Assembly (NCBI GenBank): GCA_033439255.1
Contig: CM065879.1
Location: forward strand, 1 to 37,500
DNA length: 37,500 nt
Origin: Hericium rajendrae
Taxonomy: Eukaryota; Basidiomycota; Agaricomycetes; Russulales; Hericiaceae
Direction: 5' to 3'
Part shown: one piece after another, positions 17,147 through 37,500 of the stretch
Position numbering within the stretch: position 1 is the stretch's first letter
Layout: each line of letters opens with the position of its first letter
The notes under the pieces: model-generated
Databases searched by the model: none
The model's input: only the letters and a program-made list of their open reading frames with translations
What the model was told of the DNA's origin: nothing
Position numbers and translations under genes: made by a program

Positions 17147-19063
17147 TCAACCCAAAGCTGAAGTGGGTCGAATCACACTCTCATCACCAAGATGGAGTGG
17201 CCCAAGGGCACGAGCTAAGCCCAGGGATGATGATAGCAGGATGCCTACTACATACAGGAGGCAGAGACTATCTAAGTGGATGCTGACTAAGCCTCGGCAT
17301 CCTCCGAACCTCTGGATGCAGGGAGCCTCTGGCTCCCTAGTCCAACGGGGGTTGGAGTCGGCATTGAGGGGGCAGTCGCGGAAGCCATGGCCCTTCTGGC
17401 GGCAGCGGAAGCAACCACCCTCACGCCTGAGACGCTCACGGTCAGGCTCTGAGAGTTTGGGCAGTGGGGCACCTGTAGCAGCAACTGTGCGGGATCGGCC
17501 AGTAGATGTGGACTGAGGGGAGCGGGTGCTCACCGGGGTGCGCCCAGTTGTAGGGCGGGGACTCTGAAACCGGGTGCGCATGAGGTAGGCAGCATTCCTG
17601 TCACGGGCCCTTGCCTTCCACTCATCCAGGGTGGTGGGCGTGGGGTAGCTGCACTGGCAATCATCCCGCAAGGTGCTGTTGAGGCCATGCAGGAACCAAT
17701 TGAGCAGGGCCACATCGTTGTAGCCAGTGCGAGGAGTGAAGGACTCGAACTCGGTGATGTAGTTGACTACCGGGCGTGTACCCATCTGGAGGGTCTGGAT
17801 GGCATGGGAGGCATCCTTGGAGTCGTCAAGGGGGGAGAAGTCCAAATTGAAGCGAGTTCGAAGGGCAGCGAGGTTGGCGTAGCGAGGGACATGGGCTGGA
17901 GATGTGTTTGCAGCCACAAGATCGTCATCCTCAAGGATCTCCTTGACACGCTGGGTGGCCCACTGGCTGGCAATAGGGCCCTGGCAGAGGTTGAGGAAGA
18001 GGGAGATCTGGGCAGTATCATCTTTATACCGGGTAGAGTTGGCGCGAAGGAATAAGCGAATACGCAACTGGAACTCCTTGGACTTGGAACGATCTCCCTC
18101 AAAGGGAGCAGGTTTGATGCCGATCTTGGGGTTGGACATGTCGTCGGGCGGCTGAACAGGGGGAGCTGGGGCGATGATCGGTTTGACGTTGATGGTGGAT
18201 GTGGATGTAACAGTGGTAACAGGTGGAGCGGGTGAGGGGATTGGTATCGGGGTTGGGATGCGAGGGGGTAGTGGTGAGCGGAGGACTGCGAGCCGGGCAA
18301 CTCGCTCTTGCTCGCGGGCTTCTAGGACTTGGTGAGAGAGAGCGAGTTCAGATTCAGTGATGAAAACGCTACTGGCCTGCCAAAACCACTGATCTCTTCC
18401 TTCTACTAGGTTTGGTCTCCAGCCAACGACTAGGCGTCGAGAGTTGGAACGGTATGCGTAGTACTTCCTGGTAACGGCATTGAAGATGATACCTGCTGGT
18501 ACAGAGAGGGGTTCGGTGCGTGCAGGAGGGGAGTTGATACTAGGAGGGGCAATGGTGGGGAGCGGTGGAGTGGCTGGGTGTAGGCGGTGGTGTTCTTCTC
18601 TGGCAACGTCGAAGTCAACGAGTTTGAGGTAGGGGAAGTCTTCACGCTCAGCGAAGTACCACTGGCAGGTGGCAGGGTCTTGGTGAGAAAAGTGGATCCG
18701 GGCGATGCCAGCAAGGGTGTAAACGTGGTAGTCCCCAAGGGACTCGAAGATCCCGAGTGGGAAGGGTGCAGTGGTCTTGAAGCGGGGGTCGGTGGAATCA
18801 ATGGTGATAACCTACAGGAAGTCTGCCGCAACTGGATGATGTCCAAGGGCACAAGGGTACAAGGTGGTGGAGTATGGGGTTCTGAGGAATCGGTGACCGA
18901 GGCGTTCTCTGGCCCACACAGGCTCAGGTGAGGGTTCTGGGGTGAAGAAACCTAGTGTGCAAAAGGGGAATGAGGTCGATGGCAGGATGCTCGCAGGGGA
19001 TCCTCGGTTGGGTTGGCGACAGTGGTAGGCGATGTCCGAGGCACCAAACGTGAATTCTTGCAA
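17147..19063 (-). pseudogene. gag: Ty3/gypsy gag remnant with one in-frame stop
   Basis: From 18139 the minus strand encodes a retrotransposon capsid protein. Its retrotrans_gag-like region contains FEGDRSKSKEFQLRIRLFL and SPLDDSKDASHAIQTLQMG, followed by a CCHC zinc knuckle CFRCRQKGHGFRDC (plus-strand span about 17372-17413). The same frame extends upstream without an ATG to about 19063, adding roughly 300 residues, and is broken only by a TAG at 18812-18814 just before VITIDSTDPRF. A CAG-to-TAG change is likely. No protease, reverse transcriptase or integrase follows, because after about 17290 the frame runs into unrelated sequence and stops at 17147. Gag normally packages element RNA in cytoplasmic particles; here it is a dead, gag-only fragment. 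Confidence 0.8.
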
Positions 19064-24333: not shown

Positions 24334-24999
24334 ATGGCCTCTCCCCACACACCAAGCACACCATCTACTCCCAAGGGATGCCGCCATCGTCAATTCCACT
24401 CTCCGAGGTCTCGGAAGACACCATCCTTCGCTTGCCTTCAAGGATCGAAGAAGGACGCAGAAACACCTGCAACCATCAAAGAAAAAGTAGCAAAGCCGAT
24501 TGACAGGCGCACCTAATTCACAGGATTTGCCAGCATTATGATTCGATATTTCTCGCTGGCACAGGATCTGGAAAGAGCATAATTTTCCAGGGGCTTGCTG
24601 CTATGAATAAGAGCAAGATTGCTGTCGTTATCAGCCCCCTGAAAGCATTAGAGTGAGATCAGGTGCGCAATTAAGAGCCAGGCAGACATAATGAATGCTT
24701 ACCGTCACACGAAAGGTCGAGGAGGCCGAGAAGAAGGGCCTACGCACAACAATGATCAATGAGATCACAGCAAAGGACCCTTCTGTCTGGGAAAGGCTAT
24801 GCAAGACGAAGGACCACCTGTACTATGTGTCACCTGAGATGGCACTGGGAGACAGCTTCGTCAAATTCTGGCAGGACGTGCGGTTCCGCTCCAAGGTCCA
24901 AACTGTGGTGGTTGAGGAGGCACATTGCATCGACGAATGGGGAGATAGGTTTCGTGCCGAGTATGGAAATCTGTCGAAGCTGCGAGACTACATCGGCCA
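24334..24999 (+). pseudogene. RecQ-like DNA helicase, 5' part, interrupted by transposon
   Basis: The start ATG at 24334 opens a Ser/Pro-rich N-terminus. Walker A AGTGSGKS (about 24556-24579), motif Ia VISPLKALE and motif II EEAHCIDEW (24914 on) are those of the RecQ branch of SF2 helicases, 3'-5' unwinding enzymes. The copy is dead even without the insertion: the region just before Walker A is out of frame with the N-terminus, and a TGA at 24654-24656 sits where relatives carry Arg (CGA-to-TGA fits). The first Asp of the DEAH box is Glu. An intron (24663-24715) joins SPLKALE-x-DQ to VEEAEKKG. At 24999 the transposon begins; the next helicase codons are at 37415. Confidence 0.8.
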
Positions 25000-25015
25000 C
25001 ATCTGGAAAAAGTGT
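25000..25015 (+). repeat. Left terminal inverted repeat of the 12.4-kb element
   Basis: CATCTGGAAAAAGTGT, identical in reverse complement to 37399-37414 and identical over its first 12 bases to the left end of the element at 11021. Confidence 0.92.
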
Positions 25016-25219
25016 TTTTTGATTGATAGCCGTGGCTACATTACGTTTCATTACAGAACTGGCACCGGTGTTACTGATAGATTGCCGGTGGGGTATAATA
25101 GCCGGTGTTCTGATATTGATTAACGCCCATTGTTACGTGTGGTAGCGAGCTTTCTACTATAGCATCTGTAGCGCAGCCTCCAACGAAAGGAAGAAACATG
25201 AAATATATTCAAAATTAAG

Positions 25220-28200
25220 CTACCAAATTGTCTGATATGCATACATGCTTGCCCAATTATTAACATAGAATGAATGCGCCTGATCCAAGACCTTTTCCGA
25301 AGCCCAGGATCTGTCAACCTTCTCCGCAAAATGTGGGATAAGTTGACAAGATTGTCGAATTTGAGATAACGGTACAATACTTCCCTCTCGTTTCGCTGTT
25401 GTGGACACGCTGTACATCATGTGGTTTTTGTTTGCAGTGGGCTGAAAGGGGTATACCACTCCACATAAGCCAATTCCTCTTTGGTCCATGACGGCGTAAA
25501 GTGGGCGACCTTCTCTGGAAGCTTGAAGATTACACGAACACGTCCGACACGAGTCCCTAAATAGTCCTATGAATTAGAAAGGTGAGATTAAGGTGAGATT
25601 AAAAGGTACCTTCAACACCTGTAGACTCTGCGCCAGCTGAATACAGTCCAATAATGGTGTCAAATCGAGCTGCCTGTTTACGCGTCGCAGGCTGCGCTTT
25701 TACTGTCTCTCGTTCACGATCAGGTGAAGTCATGACATCTGAGTGTCCAAGCTCTGTACGGGTGAATTTGAAGCTGCGGTATAAGGCAAGATCCGTAAAG
25801 GGGAGTGTGCCATCTTGAATTTGCCTGCGTTTGGCCTTTTCCATGGTAGGAAGAAAATTGTTGATATAGCGCTTGAGAGCTAGGGTGAAACCAGGAGCGT
25901 CATGTTCCTTCTCGATAGACAATATGGGAACCTTGGGAAATGGGGGTCGTTTGGCAACCTGAATGGATGGTGTCGTTTTCAAAGGAGGTGTAGTACAAGG
26001 TGTTGTCGTAGCTCCCTCTCGCTGAAGAAAGGTATCAAACATGGCCACTTTTTCCCGACGAGTGAGCCATTGCGCCATCTGCGGTCGCTCGTCTCGATGG
26101 TTTGAAGCGCGCCATGCCTCCTTAGCAAAGTCAATGTGAAAGCGTTCAAACATTTCAGTATTGTAGTTATCCGTCGTTCCAAACAGACGGATAGACTCTG
26201 TATAGTGAACCAATGAATGAAGTTTAGGAATATTGAAGTGCTTTCGTATGCCGAGATTTTTCAAGACCTGCCTGTTCTTGAAGAAGTCATCTAATGCCTT
26301 CTCCAGATAGCCAAGCGTTGTATCATCATGAGTAGGATACTGGGCGATATAGATGAAATCTAAAAGGGCACGAAAAGCGACCAGAAGACCGGAAGGGACT
26401 CTCCCAACCAAACAAGCAAGGAGAATCTTTGCCATGTTCTTGCGCTCTGTTCCGGGTATTTGAGAAAGAGCGGAGAGACCATTTTTGAAGTGCCGTACAC
26501 CAAATGCAGGAGGGAGACGGCGGATGCGTTCATCAAGTTCCTCGCTAGTCAACAGCTTTCCGCACCATTTGACGACGTACTTGAAAACACCCTGATGGAG
26601 CTGATGCAAAATGTCAGGGGTGATGGACCTGTAGATGTCCGTGTGCGGAAAGCCCTCCCAGAAAGGGTGTTCTATGCCTGCCACGCTTTGATCTAAACAT
26701 GCTTCGCTAAAAGCAGATCTTGACTTTGTGTTCGCCTTCGAGAGTTTGATGATGTCCAGCGTCTCCTTGTGGCTACGTTTGGTACCTGGCTTGCGAGATT
26801 CCAACGCCTTGGGTCTGCATTTAGGGCAGTCACCGTATTTGGTGCAGGCCACGAGGCACTGCTCTGGGTAATCTGCCACGTATGCTGCAAGAATGGGGTG
26901 GATCTTGCGTATTTTTCCGTCACCGCAAGTGATAGAAATTCCTTTCTTCCAGCTTCCTTCAATGGCTGGAGAATTAACCGCATGGAATCATGGAAAAGAA
27001 TCTGAGCGCGGGCCTTGCGCTCAGCCTTGGTGATACCAGCCTTCCTGATTTTAGCAACTGAGAGATAGCCTATGAGAATGCAAGCTTGCTGAGATGGTCG
27101 GCGTCGTATTGATCGTGGAATGTTGCCCAGCGTGAGGTATACAGGATAGGACGTCTTATTGCCGGTGAACTGGGTAAGCTGTGTTTTGTCGCTGGCAATA
27201 ATGACCGGCGCAATGCAATGTCCTTCGGGTATTAGATTCTATAGATGACGAACTGTGAGCAAGCTTCAAGGAAGGAGCAATTAAGCTAGTAACACACCTG
27301 AACAACGCTCCACCATTTACCGGTCTACATTTCTTGGTAAATCCTTGTCTTCCGATTCTTATCGGCGAATACTTTGGATGGTCGGTAGACGATATGTTGC
27401 GCATGGGTTGGGTTGCCCAAGAGAGCTTGTATTGCGTCCAAAGGATTTCTGTACTGAACGAAATGCTCCTCATCGAGCCTGTCTGGGAATACGAACGTCT
27501 TGGTGAGCCAGTCAGCACGGGCTGGGATGGAGTCGACAATATTCAAAAGTTCCCACGTATTGTGGTACTGGATACCGAGACGTTCTACCATCTGCAAGAT
27601 AGATCAGCCCCATTGGGAAGTACAACCGTGGAAAGATTGAACGTACCCCAGGGATGGCCAGGAATCGGTCGAACGTGTTGTGACCTATATTTTCTTGAAC
27701 AGCCCACTTCGCAACCCTCCAGTCCATCTCAGATCGAAAAGGAGCCCAGTTTTGGATCTTTTCTGCATCTCCTACTTCGAGATGCTTGCTGCGCATGAGC
27801 TGAAAGAACTGACGCCAACTTGCGTCTAGGGTGGCATCCTCTCCGAACTCCCGCGCTGCAGTGGGATGGATATCTTCTACGCGCAGATCTTCATCGTCAT
27901 CAAGAGATAAAGCATTCACAGTAGGCAGCACACGGCGAGAAGCTGAGGCCATAGTAGAAGGTCCGGGATCTCCTCCACCTGCAGACTCAGGCACCGCAGA
28001 AGAATCTGGTCGCGAAAGAGGTAAAAATCTGTAGAAATCTTCATTAAAGGCTCTCAGTACTTGTGCGGGGTCATCGGAAATGTCCTCATCCTCATCGTCA
28101 TCAGATCCCACTTCATCCCTCTCTGGCGTGTGCAAAAGGGTCTCTGGGATATCCCATTCTGTCTGCCAGACCTCCCTCTTCTTCCCCATGTTGTATTCCT

Positions 28201-28330
28201 TGCAAGATTTTGAGGTGCGTTGATGGTAGTAAAGGCCCGTTACCGTGTCGAACCTGCCTCCACAATTTCCGCACCGCAGATCGGTCGCGATGGCGGACCC
28301 ATCGAGGGAAAGTCGGCGACGTTTGCCCAT
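25220..28330 (-). pseudogene. Plavaka transposase, four exons, disrupted
   Basis: The start ATG is at 28330 and the stop at 25220-25222. Introns are at 27592-27646, 27239-27297 and 25567-25609. The N-terminus has a zinc-finger-like C-x2-C...H...C cluster (residues about 20-43), then an acidic linker. The catalytic core follows the Plavaka pattern: IIASDKTQLTQFTGNK, YPVYLTLGNI, ADYPEQCLVAC, DILHQLHQGVFK, FIYIAQYPTHDD, GIRKHFNIPKLHSL and YNTEMFERFHIDFAKEAWR. The C-terminal exon has RVGRVRVIFKLPEKV and VPLSQIRQSC. Three breaks are seen: a TAG at 27325-27327 in place of the Trp before TGKWW, a one-base loss near 26938 and another shift near 25445. The intact protein would cut and paste the element by recognising its TIRs; this copy cannot make it. 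It is transcribed away from the cargo. Confidence 0.88.
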
Positions 28331-28420
28331 TAACTAATACCATATTAGTCCCCCCCATTAACACGTTAACATGGACAACAGGAACTTACCTCAACAAAGT
28401 ATACTGCGATAATGAGGGAG

Positions 28421-28460
28421 CGTGGAAATTGTTTGGCTACACCCAAACAATTCCCACGCA
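28421..28460. repeat. 40-bp palindromic element, copy 1
   Basis: GTGGAAATTGTTTGGC and its near reverse complement form a hairpin. It is related base by base to the palindrome at 31256-31303 (shared blocks GTTTGGCT, CCAAAC and TTCCCACG). Confidence 0.7.
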
Positions 28461-28479
28461 CAGAAAAGCAGTGTCCCAA

Positions 28480-28864
28480 TGAGTTCGTAAGTGCAAAAGC
28501 ATAAAAATTGTTCCAGGAGCACTCACCGGTGAAGGCACCCAAACTCAATAGGACGGACAGGACGGGGTGAAGGTCGTTGGGGGGAAAGCCAAACGATAAT
28601 GGCATGGGACCTGCATGCACGGCATCTGCACGCACGGTGCCTTCAACATGTGGCACATGATAATCTAGAATTCTAAGAAGGGAAACAGTCAGCATAAGTA
28701 ATATGGCAAACGTCACTTACCACAGAACAGCCGTAAGTTGTGCTCTTGAGTCCAGCATGCACTTGGGGGTTCATTTCTGCCCAGAACTGCATTCCTTGAC
28801 CGTTCTGATTGGCTCCCTGCCACAGCACAATGCTATAACTGTCATAAGATGGTGACGCTGCCAT
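28480..28864 (-). CDS. Uncertain small gene beside the transposase
   Basis: The minus strand opens with ATG at 28864 and a 48-codon exon (WQGANQNGQGMQFWAEMNP...), ending at a good GTAAGT donor. After the TTCTTAG acceptor a second open stretch encodes ILDYHVPHVEGTV...LSFGFPPNDLHPVLSVLLS and ends at GTGAGT. The two do not join in phase, being one base off, so the gene is broken or spliced differently. No family was recognised. It lies between the transposase and the Ulp1-like gene, inside the element. Confidence 0.35.
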
Positions 28865-28935
28865 GGAGGAGCGACGATGAGGGCAAGACCATCTGCAATG
28901 CGTACTTACGAGCGTTTACAGCATTGAATGCGCGC

Positions 28936-29061
28936 AAGTCGTGAGGTGTTAGACGCGCTTCCAGCGGGCCGCACGTTCCGTGCATTTTTGTTACCCATAT
29001 TTAGGCAACAAAAACGCACGGAACGCGGCCCGCTGGAAGCGCGTCTAACGCCTCGCGACTT
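28936..29061. repeat. 126-bp foldback hairpin upstream of the Ulp1-like gene
   Basis: Arms of about 58 bases pair around a short centre. Substitutions between arms are four, three of them CpG versus TpG/CpA, plus one 2-base indel. No clear target duplication flanks it. It occupies the divergent region before the protease gene, so it could influence expression or simply be a nested insertion. Confidence 0.85.
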
Positions 29062-29212
29062 GGGCATGTTCGACTTCAAGCAACGTCTCATTCTCCCTCC
29101 ACCGTTCTTCCTCAACGCCAAACCGTAAGTCAATCATTTTTTATCTTCAAAAAGGTGACTCACATTCTTGCACATTCCATGCAATGCATTTTTAGAGCTG
29201 GTAGAACATACT

Positions 29213-31135
29213 ATGGCCACTTCGAGCCGTTCTCGAACGTCGAAGGGCTCTCGGTCAGAGTCAAGGCGCGGTGTCCCGTACACGGCAGAGGAGCGGGCCA
29301 GGATGGATGCGAGGAATGCGAAGGTCAAAAAGTGAGTACCACATCCTCTCTCAGCTGACACAAATAGCTTACCTTTCTTTGCCGTTGCCGTTCGTTAGGG
29401 ACAAGCAGGCGGCGAAGTGGGCTGATAGCTCCATCTTCGTCGTCTCAACGTCCGAGGCTATAGCAGCACACGCCCGACGACTTGAGACAACCACTCATAT
29501 GCGGGTTCGTCTATCTCGCCCCCGCGCCCCGTCCCTCATGGCAGTTTCCCATACCCTGCTTTCGTCTCAGCACGGACCACCTCCCAACATCCTCCTTTCT
29601 CCCTCTGTTGCTTCGCAAGTTCTGAAATTTTTCGATGCGTTCCTCGAGTGGCTCGACTCGGCTGAGCTACAATGGCTGTGGGCCTGCGCCGATCTCGACA
29701 ACGGCGTTGTCTCTGAGCAGCGCACCATTCACAACCAGGTCTTAACCCTGCTGCAAGATGGAACAGAAGCCAGCTATGCGCTCGTTCTCGCCCTCCAAAC
29801 CAGCTACCAGGAGGCCGTTGTCCTTGGCTTAAGCCATCTCGGCAGCTTTGAGGCCCGACTGTCTCAGTTGAAGATGGGGAATGAGCAAAGGGCCCTACTG
29901 CGCACGGTTGGCAGCCGCTTTAGGGATGTGGTATTTGGTTTGAAGATGTGGAGTATGGGCGTGCGGGTCGTGCTTATCGATTGGAGAGATGCAGGAGGTA
30001 TCAACGTACAGAACGTTCTGCGCCAGGTACGTTGCCTTTGTCCTTTACTTTGCTTTAGCTAACAGCAAGCCCTTTTTTGGGTCTGGAAGACTGTGAAAGG
30101 ACAAGTCGTCGACGGTAATTTCATTGTGGAAGTGCATAGCGTTCTCGATGGAAAAGTTTGCACCGACGACTGTAAGGTCGCCGATGTCGAACGACTCCGT
30201 CCAGGGCAGATGCTCAACCACGCTGTCATTAATTACTTTGCTTACAAGTGGAGCCACAAATACCGTGACAGCATTGTGCTGCGTACAGAGTTCATGAGTC
30301 TCCGGTTTCCTGTCTTGCCCCCTCCTAATCCCGCTCTCATCTTTAAGTACCGGGGATTGCAGGTAAGTGAAGTCAGTTTGCTCTGGGTGTACGGTGCCTG
30401 ACGTACATCCATTGAACAGGTTGTGTCTAGGTCCGGCATCATTCCGTGGAAACGAATACTCATTCCGGTGCACCTCCCGTCGCAAACATATTGGGTAGCA
30501 GCTGCAATCGATTTTGAACGTCTTCGCATCGATGTGTACGACAGCCTACCTGGTGTGCGCGAGGCAAACAAGGGCCTGAAGTTGGAACAACAGGCCCATT
30601 GGCCCATCGTTGCTCGTCTCAAGTCCTTCGTCAACCACCTGTTTCACGCGCTCGGAAGATATCATGGTATTCGCATCTCTAACTATTGGCCTACATGGGT
30701 ACTACGCCCCCATGCATCTGTACGTATCGTGTACGCACAGCAATTCTTTGCTGACGTGCTTCTGTAATTTCACAGTGTCCCACCCAATCCAACGCTGTTG
30801 ATTGCGGTGTTTTCGCCCTGTTGACCATGTTCCATCTGCTCCACGGCGGCCTTCAATCGTGGAGCGTCCCTGCCGAGTTTGCTTTCACCTTTGACAGGCC
30901 GCGCGCGCTGGACGGCGTTCGACTTCTCCTGATGGAGGAGCTGATTCAGGACAGGGAGGAGGGCCGGAGCTTTCAAGGTGGACAGCAGGTCGACATCACG
31001 CAGATGGAGGCCGCTATCGTGGATGGCTGGGACGATTCGGACGTCGAGCTGCTGGAGATGACGGACGGGGACGGCGGGGACGGCAGGAGCGAGAGCGGGA
31101 GCGGGAGCGAGTCTGCTGTTGAGGTTGTGGGGTAG
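29213..31135 (+). CDS. Ulp1-like C48 cysteine protease, catalytic His replaced by Tyr
   Basis: Five exons (29213-29331, 29399-30026, 30066-30362, 30420-30719, 30776-31135), all with GT-AG introns, give 567 residues without a break. The N-terminus is short and basic (SSRSRTSKGSRSESRR), followed by a helical region. The protease fold is at about residues 345-500. IPVHLPSQTYWVAAAIDF aligns with the His-Trp strand of Ulp1, YDSLPG carries the catalytic Asp389, and TQSNAVDCGVFAL carries Gln452 and Cys458. Yeast Ulp1 has His 17 residues before the Asp; here that residue is Tyr372 (codon TAT, one transition from CAT). The tail is acidic and Ser/Gly-rich. Ulp1 enzymes remove SUMO, and transposon-borne versions are common in fungi. 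Here activity is doubtful, and SUMO binding without cleavage is possible. Confidence 0.85.
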
Positions 31136-31255
31136 GTGCCGGTGCGTCAGTACGGCCCCCCTCCCTTTGTATTAGACTTGGCCTGAGATAGACTTCTTCA
31201 ATCACATGTGTTTTGAACCTGATTATTTAGAAAACGCGAAACTGAGGAACTTTTT

Positions 31256-31303
31256 GGGGCCGCGGGAAACGTTTGGCTGCAGCCAAACGTTTCCCACGGC
31301 CCC
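31256..31303. repeat. 48-bp palindromic element, copy 2
   Basis: GGGGCCGYGGGAAACGTTTG and onward forms 24-base arms that differ only at one CpG/TpG site. It lies between the Ulp1-like and TET/JBP genes and is related to the palindrome at 28421-28460. Confidence 0.8.
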
Positions 31304-31432
31304 CGCGTAACGCCCGTCGCATCGCGTCGTCTCGCGTCGCCTAGCCAGCAGCCTTGAACGTGCTTCCACATCCCGCACGCCCCGCACGCCCTCTGCTCAT
31401 CTACGCACTCCCCGCGCCTGGCCTCTACCTCG

Positions 31433-34345
31433 ATGAACGCCGTCCCGATTCCCTCGGACGTGCTGCAAGACGTGTTGCGGGCTCTTACGTGCCTTGAGGC
31501 CGTAGAGTCGCGGGCTTCGGAACATTCGAGCAGCGGTACGTCGCGGCTCCTTCTGCAACTCACCCGTCTGGCCCAGGAAAGCCGTGCGTGCGGCTCTCCT
31601 TGCTCCGACAACCGCGTCACCCGCCCTACAGAGGCTGATCCCGCCCGCCCACATACGCCGCCGTCAGGCCAGCACGCGCTCTCCCCCTTCAACTCTCCGA
31701 GCCCGCTCATGCCGCCCCCACGCACACCTCCGTTCAACCTGCACGACCTGAGGGACTCGAGCGAGCCCGATTCTGATGGGGAACCGGAGATTGAAGGGGA
31801 CGGGCAGCCGCGGTTGGGTGAGGGCGGCGCGGGTGGAGGAGGTGGTGGAGGTGAGGGCGGCCCCGACGTCCAGCACCTCTGGCACGATGGCTGCCGTCGA
31901 GGGGGAATTCCGGTTTGGGTCATCAACAACGACCCAGCCTGGGTCGTGACCAGAGACGCGCGGGGCTTTATCGCCATGCTCGGCGCGTGGGGCCACGTCG
32001 GTATTGGCGTGCGTCGGCCGCGGAAGGGAGCTTCTTCGTCTGGGGCGTCGTCTGACGCGCTGGATTTTAGCAGACTGAAGCAATGGGCGCAAGATGTTCG
32101 CATGGAGTTGGAAGGGGGGAGAGGCAGCCACGCTGGGGGGGGGTTCCAGGCAGCCCTGCGAGATTGCTGGTTGATCACCAGCAGGCAAGTCGGGGTCAGC
32201 TTTGCCACCATGGTAAGCTTCATGACCCTTGTGGTGAGAGTTGAGAAGTGAGTACCTAGGTCCTGGTTGAGCACATACGCTAAGCTCTTGTTTAGCCTCC
32301 AGAAGCAAAACCGGCTGCCCGACAAGCTCGCATTTTGGAGACGTTTCGTGGAAGCCGAATCGGATTTGCCTGTCACCTATAGTACTTTCCTTGAATGGCA
32401 CAGCAAGGGCAGCAAATATGCTGCAATTGCATCTGGAGGTGAGTTGTTATTTTGTTCGCGTGGCATTTTCAGCGTCCACTGTCGCAGTGGCTCATTCAAT
32501 TTCAGGATCTATCTACGCCCTGGTACTGATAGCGGGCCTCAAGCTACGGGACAAGCTCCATCATATTCAGGACCTGAGCCCCAACATCATGACCAATCTG
32601 CTGCGTGTTCCGCCGCCAGGCACGCACGACATCGGAGTGGTGGTCCGCACAAAAATCATTCCGGCGGTGGCATATCTCAGCCGGATCCTTCCCATGAGCC
32701 TTGCGGGTCTGTTCTCACCAGAGGACCTGCTACCCTGGAACGTTCCCCCCTCCATGGACTGCTTTAATTTGCAGTTCTCTGACGGGTTTTTTGAGATTAT
32801 ACCTTTTAAGTGCGTCTTATCTCCGTTTCCGTTTTCCTTTATTCTTGGCTAATTCAATTTTCAGTAATTTTCGCCCCTTGTCTCGTGATAAAGAGGCATG
32901 GGCGCCTTGCTCGGCCAACGTACCCTGGGCATCGACATCGTTTCTCACCTTACAGGAGGTTGTGCGACGTCAATCAGGGATCTCTCATTTTCCCTCCTCG
33001 TCCGGCCTGTTCTTACCGACACCAGAGCCTTCCAACCCTTCCACGCCATCTGCGTCCTTTCTTGATATTTCTGAGGACGACAGGGTTCCCATGGACTTAG
33101 ATCCTTCAGGTCCAGCCCTAATCATTTCAACCGGATACCAGCACCGTCACCCGCAAAATGTGGCAACATCTGCAGCTGTGGATCATGAGGAGAACTACCA
33201 GTGGACGGAGATGCAGCGAACACTTGCTGCAGCATGTCTAGAACACCCGGCGACGTCAGTTGAGGACCTATCCTCCAAGGTTGGTAGGCTGTTTGGCTTA
33301 AATATGATTCATTCTGATTTTGTTTTTCGAAGCTGGGTATGCACTACGTAGGTGGGATCCGACGAGATCCCACTTCCTATGTGGCTTTCTCCACGAACAT
33401 TATTGAGTGCATACTTTTGTAGCCACTTTATATATCTCTCCTGTCTTTCTGATATATTTTTACAGGGATAACGTTCGAATCCAGAATGACGACGGAAGCC
33501 TCATGGCTTTCATTTGTACATCTCTACCCTCCCATATCCGCGACAATTTGCACTCTGGTCTTAGGGCCTGTGTTGGGGAGATCCTGTACAGTCGGGACTC
33601 CAGTGCTGAGGGAGAGGCGTTGAAGTTCGGCACCTACCATTTTTCGTGGTATAATCGACATGCGACCAAGGTACACCTTTGTGATACCCTGCTTTTTTCC
33701 TTAATATTTTCTTAATGACTTTAACAGGGCACGAATGCCCCTCCTGGTGTCCAACCTCTGTATTTGTCTAAGGATGGCACATCTCGAACGAATCGCACGC
33801 AGATGACGGCCTATCCCTCCACGGACATGCAGAAGTACGCTACTACTTTGGAAAAGATGGAGGTAATATTCCAAGAGCTTTTTCAATGGATCGAGGCAAA
33901 GGTATGCACATTTGTGCGCGGATAAAATTGTGGTTGCTAACAGCTCCTATTGTAGCTTCTTGATTGTTTGCCGTGGGAGTACATGCAGCTGTCTGTGTCC
34001 TCAAAGGACCTCCCAGGCAATGCGCAATCAATTGTACGCCCCTTCGTAGGCTTTGTCATCAACATCAACGTCGCCACGAAGGGCCATCGAGATGACAAGG
34101 ACGAATCTCACTGTCTTGTCTTACCTATTGGTGCATTTACCGGTGGCGCTCTAGTGTTCTATGAGCAGGGCGTGGTGATTGAAGCTCATCACGGTGATAT
34201 TGTTGTTTTTAATTCCAAGGATACCACTCACTTAAACCTCCATTATTGTGGCGAGCGAGCGTCCTTCGTCTTTCACACAGATGCTGCTATGGCAGAGTGG
34301 ACAAGGAATCGCAATGGTTGGGACGACAACAGAACATTTTTTTGA
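31433..34345 (+). CDS. TET/JBP family 2-oxoglutarate/Fe(II) dioxygenase
   Basis: Eight exons (31433-32247, 32296-32438, 32506-32809, 32865-33279, 33333-33406, 33466-33670, 33728-33901, 33956-34345) join in phase to 839 residues with no stop. The C-terminal double-stranded beta-helix has the iron ligands His754 and Asp756 (KGHRDDKDE) and His802 (DTTHLNLH), and a basic residue Arg811 (GERASFVFH) placed to bind 2-oxoglutarate. TET/JBP enzymes oxidise 5-methylcytosine (TET) or thymine (JBP) in DNA in the nucleus, and Agaricomycete members are expanded and transposon-linked. Residues 1-650 have no domain I recognise: Pro/Ser-rich, a Gly run at about 136-150, then conserved-looking segments such as SIYALVLIAGLKLRDKLHH. 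It lies 297 bp after the Ulp1-like stop and 248 bp before the next gene, same strand. The ligands are intact, so activity is plausible. Confidence 0.88.
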
Positions 34346-34593
34346 TACATAATTTCACTCTTTACTTACCGTACTCGTACTCAATATCTCTTAATCCAAC
34401 AGCTTTTTGTTTGTGCAAGTGAAATTTCTAGAGTGTGCTAGCGTGTGCGAACCAGCAGGGAGTGGCAAAACATTTCTCACCCTTCTCTAAGCGAGGACGG
34501 AGACAGGATACCGCGTAACCAAGCGCCGCTTCATCTTCGTCCAAGCCACGTAGCATCCGTCTTCCTCCTCACCGCTCCCCTACTCCTTCCTCT

Positions 34594-36907
34594 ATGGCTA
34601 GCACCAGGTCCAAAACAAAGGGTATCCAGTCCAAGCCTGTTTCTGCACCAACCACCAGGGCTAAGAACCCAGTGCCCGCATCAGGGAAGAACGCGGCAAA
34701 GGTGAGTGACCTACTCGTACAGTTTTGAGATAATAAAAGCTTACCATTTGTATCATATCGTATGCAAGGACAAGACCAAGAAGAGCGCGGCTGCTGCTGC
34801 TGCTGCCGTCAAGGCAGCAGCTATAGCCAAGAAAGCTGGAAACAAGAGAGAACGTGATGAGGTGTCTGACAATGAGGAGCCTGTCCCCACGCCAACAAAG
34901 CCCAAGCCCAGGCCGGTCAAGAAGAAGAAGACTCAGGCAGAGCTGGTGGAGGAGGAGCGCGGTAGGTTCCGATTTACCATCGCCAGACGGTACTGACGTC
35001 GATCTAACCCAATTTTCTTATTCCACATTGAAACGATCAGAGCTAGCAGCACGCACCATGGATCTCGTCCATGCCGAAGCCAATAACGACGGCGATGACG
35101 ATTCCAACCAGGATGAGGAGAACAACGCAGACAGCGACGTTGGTGTAGAAGATGGCCTCCGCACTGACTGCCATGGGGGTCTAGATGATGAGGAGAAGGC
35201 GTTAGGGGATGACCTGGATGACGGCGGTGAAGACGACGAAGACAGTGAGTTTATACTTTGAACGTTTAACTTGAGATTGACTGACTGTGTTTTTAGGCTC
35301 AAACTGTGAAGACGAATCTGATCGTCCGGTACAAGAGGACAGCGACGAGTCAGTGGTCGATGTAGAGGAGAGAGACGAAATTGAACATGGAGAGAAGGTG
35401 TCAGGCGCTAAGAGCAGTGATCAAGTGCCAAAGAAGGCTAACGTTAAGGGACGTAAAGGACCCTTCAGCGGCGCAAAGGTATGTCCTTATGAAGGCTATA
35501 GACTGTTTTTATTACTCATTGTTCATCATTTGTCGTTGAAGCTTATGGCTGTTGCCGAAGAGCTTTCTGCCAAAAGTGGTCGGTAAGTCTTTTTATCAAG
35601 AGCGTGTTTCTTTTGATGAGATATTTCTTCGTAATAGGAAGAAGTGCGGAACCTCAGGTGTACAATTGCAAGCTGCATCAGACGTTGCGCCAGATATAGC
35701 AGCATTGTTGGGCGGCATACCTCTACGACCCGGGTCCTGGCCTCTACCCCAAATAGAGCGCGTCTTTGGCGATCTAGCAGGACAGATCAGTGCCATGGGC
35801 CGCCGCTTTATACGCGTAATGGTTTGTACTGAAGATGCTTTTCCCATGTCCACGCAGTCCAAGGATAAAGCCTTACGGACAGCCCTGAAAAGGGCTACAG
35901 CAACCAGCACACTGTTGCAGCCTGAGTACGACAAATTGTGCAAGGCCATGGCCAGTGATGCCAGTCCTGCGCTACAGCTGGAATTTGACAAAGTAACGTC
36001 TTACGTCAGTACTTCAACTTCGTACTTCAACTTCTACATGACATGTCCGCTAGCTAATATATATATATATTACAGATATGGACTGGTGTTGCGCAAGTAC
36101 GTGGTCAGATCAAGATGCAGGCTGTCAAAGCTTGCAACAATTATTTTGGGCTGGAGAAGCTACGCGCTACTGCTGGTGCAGACACTGTGAAGGACGTGGT
36201 AACGTGGCTGTTGTCTGGTCCCACTCCGGTCTTCACCTTTGGAGACATAGACGTAGAGGTATGTGTATATTGTGACCGATAATATGTGCTAATCTGTGTG
36301 CTATTTTAGGCAAAGACTTACAATGAGGAGAAGGCGCTGAAACTTCCAGTGGTCGTCACGGTTATAGCAAAACAGTGGTACGGTAAGAAAGGCGACGGAA
36401 ACCGTTCACTGTTTGCAAAAAACTATCAAGAGTTCAATATTCCTCTGTTGGCTGTGGTTTTTACAGCAGTACGTGTCATATTTTCTGTGAGATATTTGAC
36501 TGAGATATGACCAGATTGAAAACGCAATTGTTGAGTATCAAGAAGGATATAAAAAGGAGATAGAATTCAGTGATACCCTGTTTTACAGCAGGTACGTCGT
36601 TCGTGTTTACCAGCCTTGTTGTACTGATTTGATTTACTTGATATTAGGTACATATACTACCAGGATCTATTCTCAGATTTAAAAGAGCAGATGCCTGTAT
36701 ATTGGAAGCGAAAGGTTGTGGGTAAATTACGAGAGGATGTCCTGTAAGTTCTTCTTCCGACGTCTGTTCATCTACTCAATTATTCTTTCTTCTAGGACAA
36801 GCGTCGGGAGGATTTGTAACAATAAAGTTTATGATTCCAAAGCAGGGGCGGGGCTAAATTTTGCGGCTCTCGAAGCAAAAGCTATTGCTGAAAGCAGGGA
36901 TCAATAG
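34594..36907 (+). CDS. DUF6532-like protein
   Basis: Eleven exons (34594-34701, 34769-34961, 35041-35244, 35297-35478, 35542-35582, 35638-35992, 36076-36258, 36310-36468, 36515-36591, 36648-36743, 36796-36907) join in phase to 569 residues. Residues 1-100 are Lys/Ala-rich with likely nuclear signals (PRPVKKKKTQAE), about 100-235 are strongly acidic, and a short basic stretch follows. The C-terminal 300 residues (MQAVKACNNYFGLEKLRA, NIPLLAVVFTAIENAIVEYQ, YYQDLFSDLKEQMPVYW) follow the layout of DUF6532, a basidiomycete-expanded domain of unknown function often near transposons. The open frame across eleven exons argues for recent function. The domain name is given from memory of the pattern and needs a profile search. 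Confidence 0.65.
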
Positions 36908-37398
36908 AACACGGCTTCTTTTTGTACTTAGACATAGACTGCAATATCATGCTGGTGCATCCAGAAGTTTACTTTTAACTATTGAATGATCTATTTCTCA
37001 AGATGAACATTCGTACAAGAGCCTCTGAACTGGTAACAACAAGATATATCCTATAGCAAGCATTTAATTCCTATACCAATAAAATCTATACTATAACAAG
37101 TATCTAATATCTATACCTAGAAGAATAATACTGTCTTACATTATATTAACATGAACAGTACAAGACTTCACATATATATACTATAGATCTACGGTAGCTA
37201 CAGTAGCTGGACCATATAGCTACAGTAGATACCGACATCTACAGACGCTATAGATCACTACAGACTGACTATAGGCTGATACAGACCACTACATGTACTT
37301 GTAATAAAGACCCACCTATCAACAGATGCTACAGAAAATATATAATCTATTACAGCTATTGTAGATCATATTTTCTACTGTAGGCTAAAATAGTACAG
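36908..37398. repeat. Right subterminal region with CTACAG/CTATAG repeats
   Basis: No gene follows the DUF6532-like stop. From about 37170 to 37390 there are many copies of GCTACAGTAG, CTACAGA, CTATAGAT and CTACTGTAG in both orientations. The same motifs sit next to the ends of the element at 11021-13273. In CACTA-type transposons such subterminal repeats are transposase-binding sites; that role here is inferred. Confidence 0.75.
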
Positions 37399-37414
37399 AC
37401 ACTTTTTCCAGATG
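37399..37414 (-). repeat. Right terminal inverted repeat of the 12.4-kb element
   Basis: The reverse complement reads CATCTGGAAAAAGTGT, exact match to 25000-25015. The duplicated CA follows at 37415-37416. Confidence 0.92.
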
Positions 37415-37500
37415 CACGCCATCCCCATGGTTGCATGCACCGCGACATGCTCCACAGAAACCTTCGAGGTGATAATCATTCGGGCATCGTCCATTCTGGG
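37415..37500 (+). pseudogene. RecQ-like helicase, continuation after the transposon
   Basis: Joined to codon positions before 25000, this stretch reads in frame AIPMVACTATCSTETFEVII, the TAT-containing motif III region of RecQ helicases. The gene continues past the window end. Confidence 0.85.

Follow-up and report, generated by a model that had tools for sequence, protein, structure and literature searches.

TET/JBP dioxygenase genes carried by Plavaka transposons were described by Kojima in December 2025 (PMC12730594) for the PlavakaB elements of Agaricus bisporus and Gymnopus confluens. The main text of that paper sorts transposon-borne TET proteins into PU, AG and PE types, of which only the PE type, marked by an HxE motif, is given for Plavaka elements. 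Here, a Plavaka-type element of Hericium rajendrae was analyzed that carries a TET/JBP gene with an HxD motif together with genes for an Ulp1/C48-like protease and a DUF6532 protein. It lies at 25000..37414 (12,415 bp, no strand assigned) in a stretch of 37,500 nucleotides, called the window below, which forms the beginning of contig 2 in an assembly of 46.8 Mb and 19 contigs. The same gene set was found in three diverged lineages of this genome. We consider it probable, with clear reservations, that the element is a cut-and-paste transposon with a heritable four-gene set whose cargo is kept for serving the element by counter-silencing.

One mobile unit in three lineages

The element is bounded by 16-bp terminal inverted repeats (TIRs) that match CATCTGGAAAAAGTGT at 25000..25015 (+ strand) and 37399..37414 (- strand), with no mismatch at either end. 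In the window, four TIR matches with at most three mismatches were obtained, compared with a mean of 0.33 after shuffling, and none of 100 shuffles reached four. The TIRs are flanked by a CA target-site duplication (24998..24999 and 37415..37416, no strand assigned), and splicing of the flanks with a single CA yields an open frame that reads ...RAEYGNLSKLRDYIGHAIPMVACTATCSTETFE... across the junction. The interrupted host gene is RecQ-like: its left half (24695..24999, + strand, the extent of a single open frame) matches RecQ helicases, with human RECQ5 giving the best structure matches (E-value (E) 2e-8), and the right continuation of the frame (37417..37500, + strand) runs up to the window end. 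No uninterrupted RecQ copy was found in this assembly, in which the joined stretch matched its own two halves only. The exact TIRs, the CA duplication and the closure of the RecQ frame, as put forward in a preliminary description of this DNA, were thereby all borne out in the window sequence.

The exact TIR occurred 41 times genome-wide, and at the loci examined sequence similarity started at the TIR. Two further full-length copies, C2b (C2:3857472-3869885) and C4b (C4:1119862-1132277), were identified, the duplications of the window copy, C2b and C4b being CA, TC and CA. Pairwise, the three copies differ in 41, 62 and 40 alignment columns, the first two values being those between the window and the two other copies over 12.4 kb. 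A second lineage, with about 65-70% DNA identity to the window family in matching parts, comprises a complete element on C9 (13,326 bp, duplication TG/TG) and a 99.8% identical twin at C4:342-360k with one nested insertion (duplication CT/CT). The third lineage (C14:64208-76994, 12,787 bp) shares the TIR core, and its flanks do not match (GG/AG). Compared with the window family, its transposase is 39-70% identical by piece (68% over residues 325-768), its TET 36% (residues 392-801), its Ulp1 26-37% and its DUF6532 protein 24-28%. All six TIR-bounded elements contain the four genes in a single order and orientation, and the 2-bp duplications match in five of them. Remnants of the element were found on C5, C7, C8 and C18. 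As a side observation, flank comparison showed that C4b (near C4:1132.3k) and the C9 element (near C9:559.9k) sit in two copies of one host sequence, at points that differ by some 40 bp.

The proposal that all four genes lie in one mobile unit is thus upheld: three copies are full-length, each with a 2-bp duplication of its own, and two diverged lineages share the cargo and the TIR core. An absence of the cargo from all other copies of the TIR pair, named in the preliminary description as evidence to the contrary, was not observed in this genome, where other copies do contain it. Besides the six elements with four genes, a 14.1-kb stretch on C9 (C9:1485703-1499796) has TIRs at both ends. This stretch was rejected: it consists of two inverted, 99.2% identical copies (L056, L057) of a 3.9-kb low-complexity repeat that starts at the same TIR, with no match to any of the four proteins. 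These repeats are likely non-autonomous relatives.

Protein models were built from the sister copy C2b, with hand editing of two, and the exons were transferred to the window; exon-by-exon scoring covered the window, C2b and C4b. The transposase gene (25220..28330, - strand) is read leftward and the three cargo genes rightward. Its four exons, taken from the C2b model, are broken in the window and encode the Plavaka domain PF18759 (339 bits for the C2b model, cut-off 26.3; 149 and 126 bits, E 2e-43 and 3e-36, for single window frames). The protease gene (29213..31135, + strand) has five exons and is open in the window. Its C48 domain (PF02902) scored 39.8 bits in a composite model (cut-off 20.7), the window frames alone giving 19.1 and 16.8 bits, below the cut-off. 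The Ulp1 fragment of C4b matched the solved structures of SENP1/ULP1 (E 2e-4 to 6e-4), and the catalytic His, Asp and Cys, present as HW...YDSL...DCG, are kept in C2b, C4b, C9 and C14; in the window, the His is replaced by Tyr. The TET/JBP gene (31433..34345, + strand) encodes a long N-terminal region and an oxygenase part (about 33466-34345) with the HxD, His and GER motifs. Its PF12851 score was just below the cut-off in the C2b model (34.5 versus 34.9 bits), and a single window frame reached E 1e-7. For the last TET exon, a structure predicted from three rows was not used (mean predicted local distance difference test 35, predicted template modelling score 0.23). The DUF6532 gene (34594..36907, + strand) has ten model exons, is open in the window and encodes PF20149 (98.4 bits, cut-off 24). 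An alternative exon choice for it was rejected because the frame was lost in all three copies, and the earlier C2b-based exons were kept.

The window copy is decaying: besides the loss of the catalytic His in the protease, its transposase has a first stop at codon 317 and a net frameshift; the TET, DUF6532 and protease genes are open. In C2b, the transposase (966 residues) and DUF6532 genes are open and the protease is frameshifted late; reading straight through the first exon of its TET gene meets a stop at codon 215, where the adopted model has an intron. C4b has a stop at 731 in the transposase and at 67 in the protease, a frameshifted DUF6532 gene and an open TET gene.

The cargo families and their tie to transposases

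The TET motif is HRD in all seven sequences read (window, C2b, C4b, C9, C14 and two relatives on C7 and C2), so that the protein falls outside the HxE-marked PE type. In a profile search against solved structures, it gave no match, CcTET included, whereas AG-type TETs of the same genome matched CcTET (7vpn, E 2.8e-19). It does pair with the AG TET profile (E 3e-6), and a Cys takes the place of CcTET Asp337 in the alignment, which sets it apart from the AG type as well. An HxD TET in Plavaka elements appears to be new as far as the literature search reached, the type published for them being HxE.

The main text of PMC12730594 reports Asp337 of CcTET as essential for activity on 5-methylcytosine (5mC) and not for that on N6-methyladenine (6mA); the Cys at this position leaves the substrate of the TET uncertain. 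The protein could therefore act on a base other than 5mC, such as 6mA or thymine, or be inactive and bind DNA, and the lack of a sequence match to solved TETs points the same way. On the other side stand the HxD motif, the distal His and the GER motif, which are invariant across the TETs of three lineages, and a genome with 5mC-type decay (see below). On this evidence, we regard another substrate or an inactive protein as an improbable alternative.

All three cargo genes are under purifying selection between lineages. Compared with the C9 lineage, the ratio of nonsynonymous to synonymous rates (dN/dS) was 0.10 for TET (763 codons), 0.18 for DUF6532 (518 codons) and 0.20 for Ulp1 (509 codons), with synonymous differences near saturation (proportion of synonymous differences (pS) 0.69-0.71). 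Owing to saturation, the ratio was not computable for the transposase versus C9 (pS 0.79) and for all four genes versus C14.

Association with transposases was assessed from genome counts that are lower bounds, one search having scored 123 of 166 candidates and another covering part of 172 matches. Manual merging of neighbouring hits reduced the 18 for DUF6532 to 15 loci and the 21 for C48 to 17 places, and some short fragments beside larger hits were omitted. Random points, placed with estimated lengths for C3, C6 and C13, lay within 12 kb of a Plavaka match in 3.8% and of a Kyakuja-Dileera-Zisupton (KDZ) match in 6.2% of cases. At least 46 Tet_JBP hits were obtained, six of which belong to the present class, each 7.0-7.7 kb from a Plavaka transposase. 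Of the 40 other hits listed, none had Plavaka at a distance of 12 kb or less and 36 had a listed KDZ match in that range; two of these 40 (C2:1607678, C10:2012791) are partial, below the cut-off and assigned by position. Conversely, of about 79 merged Plavaka loci listed, six had a TET, of whichever class, no more than 12 kb away, and about 73 had no TET of this class nearby. The introns of this genome and its content of Plavaka, KDZ, TET and DUF6532 genes would suit a mushroom-forming fungus.

When the N-terminal region of the TET was used as query, three loci overlooked by Pfam came up. Two of them (C7:394k and C2:2236k) encode an HxD TET domain with 39-40% identity and belong to one repeat in two near-identical copies (C7:390-396k, L061; C2:2232-2238k, L062; 97-99% identical in blocks). 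Within 20 kb of either copy, neither the Plavaka transposase nor Ulp1 nor DUF6532 had a match; the unit has a weak hit to a KDZ-associated cysteine cluster (E 0.012, below its cut-off). The third locus (C8:1584k) is a decayed TET adjoining a relative of the present Ulp1 (C8:1586508, 39% identity, included among the 12 other C48 loci), with the nearest Plavaka hit 20 kb off. Given the six of six found by Pfam and these additional loci, the tie is strong and not exclusive, making this TET class mainly a Plavaka gene.

For DUF6532, ten of the 15 loci listed lay within 12 kb of a Plavaka transposase. One of the remaining five belongs to the C4 element (12.7 kb) and one to a truncated copy on C18, and three (C3, C6, C8) are without a shown link; the C3 locus was not counted as an element member, as the exact TIR 2.3 kb off faces away from it. 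DUF6532 is hence largely a Plavaka-linked gene, which is new as far as the literature search reached. All five own-class Ulp1 loci lie near Plavaka, a circular count since they were chosen for lying in elements. In the preliminary description, a comparison of the cargo families near Plavaka ends and in random neighbourhoods had been suggested. Association with Plavaka transposases was seen for TET and, above the frequency at random points, for DUF6532; it did not prove exclusive for TET, and the Ulp1 count does not bear on it.

Methylation signature and proposed role of the cargo

The window, C2b and C4b copies carry 56 private substitutions (27, 3 and 26; indels excluded), 50 of which are of the C-to-T type. 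CpG sites account for 42 of these 50, compared with 22.6% of C in CpG. Similarly, 14 of 16 transitions between the C9 element and its C4 twin, and 78 of 94 in the TET unit on C7 and C2, were located at CpG, and five exon hits to C5-methylases were found in the genome. Read from the substitution pattern, this CpG transition excess is the mark of 5mC deamination. The signature is absent from some repeat comparisons, as an old, CpG-poor control pair (L028 and L029, 84% identical) had one CpG among 34 transitions. The CpG content of the window family is 0.90, near expectation, indicating that the decay is recent.

Judged from the conservation of the gene set, counter-silencing appears the likeliest role of the cargo, since the cargo genes have not been separated in any of three diverged branches, which suggests that they serve as tools against silencing; an anti-silencing role is likewise proposed in the main text of PMC12730594. 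TET would oxidise methylated bases on the element DNA and thereby relieve silencing. The Ulp1-like enzyme, whose putative function in the SUMO pathway is derived from its conserved catalytic residues, would remove SUMO from host silencing or repair factors or from the transposase, and the DUF6532 protein may be a DNA- or transposase-binding partner. A more specific scheme, possible but doubtful at present, is that one Plavaka branch possesses a dedicated anti-silencing cassette made up of Ulp1, TET and DUF6532. In it, DUF6532, as a transposon accessory protein, would bind the element and recruit TET, TET, as a further HxD class beside AG and PE unless it is of the PU type, would strip methyl marks, and the Ulp1-like enzyme would undo SUMO-dependent heterochromatin.

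Several observations weigh against counter-silencing. The TET is strongly diverged, as reflected in its Pfam score just below the cut-off and the lack of a solved-structure match to its profile, and with Cys in place of CcTET Asp337 its substrate is uncertain. In all three young copies, two or more genes are damaged. Finally, a TIR-bounded repeat pair without TET also had 12 of 15 transitions at CpG. The TET-bearing copies thus decay like the TET-less pair, with no visible protection by TET, and the CpG signature was dropped as a sign of TET action.

This decay, which speaks against efficient protection, would fit a role of TET and its partners in the reaction or timing of transposition, with oxidised bases at the ends or targets marking the DNA for cutting, repair or host factors; the persistence of the cargo with an active-type transposase in three lineages is also in line with such a role. 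The scarcity of TET at the Plavaka loci listed counts against it: most lack a TET within 12 kb, which would make TET dispensable for Plavaka transposition, and we consider this explanation rather unlikely. Less likely still, the captured genes might ride along as passive cargo, perhaps serving the host, with no role for the element. The main text of PMC12730594 describes the transfer of TET genes between transposon superfamilies, and the repeat on C7 and C2 shows that a TET of this class can reside without a Plavaka transposase nearby. Against passive carriage, gene order and orientation are the same although TET, Ulp1 and DUF6532 differ at more than half of their residues, and purifying selection acts on all three. 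That repeats and genes adjoin here by chance, or through an error of assembly, is refuted by independent full-length insertions with their own flanks and by matching duplications in five of six elements.

With counter-silencing as the preferred reading, a four-gene element conserved over three lineages of one genome makes self-removal of silencing marks testable by comparison of Plavaka elements with and without the cassette. DUF6532, an uncharacterised fungal domain, gains a likely context.

Other features of the locus and comparison with known systems

The spacer between transposase and Ulp1 contains a long hairpin (28932..29065, no strand assigned, z-score (z) -16.1). Spacer hairpins of unlike sequence occur at a similar place in all three lineages (z -15.6 in C2b; -9.0 in C9, about 554932-554999; -13.4 in C14, about 72998-73082). 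Between Ulp1 and TET lies a 48-bp palindrome (31256..31303, no strand assigned; z -5.4 for 31220-31340), which the first and second lineages share, apart from one paired change close to the centre. Its 26-bp core AAACGTTTGGSTRYASCCAAACGTTT (31267-31292 in the window, with a weaker copy at 28432-28447) was found with up to three mismatches at 42 genomic places, and its reversed control at none; of these places, 16 are 1.8-2.5 kb and 23 at most 7 kb inward of an exact TIR. The hairpins and palindromes may be small dispersed repeats. Elsewhere in the window, close to where the contig begins, a weak SNF2-like match was noted (475-1242, - strand, E 3e-5), and 17147-18811 (- strand) matched a retrotransposon gag domain (E 8e-7).

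KDZ elements, including TET-bearing Kyakuja, with CcTET-like TETs of the AG type provide transposon-linked TETs in the same genome too, with another transposase; these AG TETs match CcTET, whereas the Plavaka-class TET does not. Zisupton elements with an Ulp1-like domain are likewise transposons with a SUMO-protease-like part, again with a different transposase. In maize, the Spm element itself encodes TnpA, which counteracts the silencing of Spm DNA, a parallel by analogy only. We know of no oxidase in the Spm TnpA system or in the Vandal system of plants. Vandal elements encode their own silencing regulator, as stated in the main text of PMC12730594, which is also an analogy only.

A search of the main text of PMC12730594, its supplement lying outside the search, returned no occurrence of Ulp1, protease or DUF6532. 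In a literature search that covered sources other than Iyer et al. 2014, no paper tying Ulp1 or DUF6532 to Plavaka elements was found; one paper, in the part available, lists DUF6532 and Plavaka together among the domains of some Ganoderma species. The earlier statement that no described Plavaka element with this cargo set was known accordingly fails for TET, given the elements in PMC12730594; for Ulp1 and DUF6532, the literature searched contained no report.

The closest described system remains TET-bearing PlavakaB, as presented in the main text of PMC12730594. Both have a Plavaka transposase, enclose a TET/JBP gene between their TIRs and share CATC ends and short duplications: the 2-bp duplications CA, TC, CA, TG and CT fit the 2-3 bp of PlavakaB, while the sixth element, on C14, does not. 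The differences are a PE-type HxE TET and CATCA..TGATG ends in PlavakaB, as opposed to an HxD TET and, in all six elements, CATCT..AGATG ends, which share four of five bases with those of PlavakaB. On the basis of its transposase, duplications and near-canonical ends, the element is a Plavaka and is to be placed with the published TET-bearing members. Its TET adds an HxD type to the HxE type so far reported for Plavaka, and beside those members the HxD TET class and the stable Ulp1-TET-DUF6532 set are new as far as searched.

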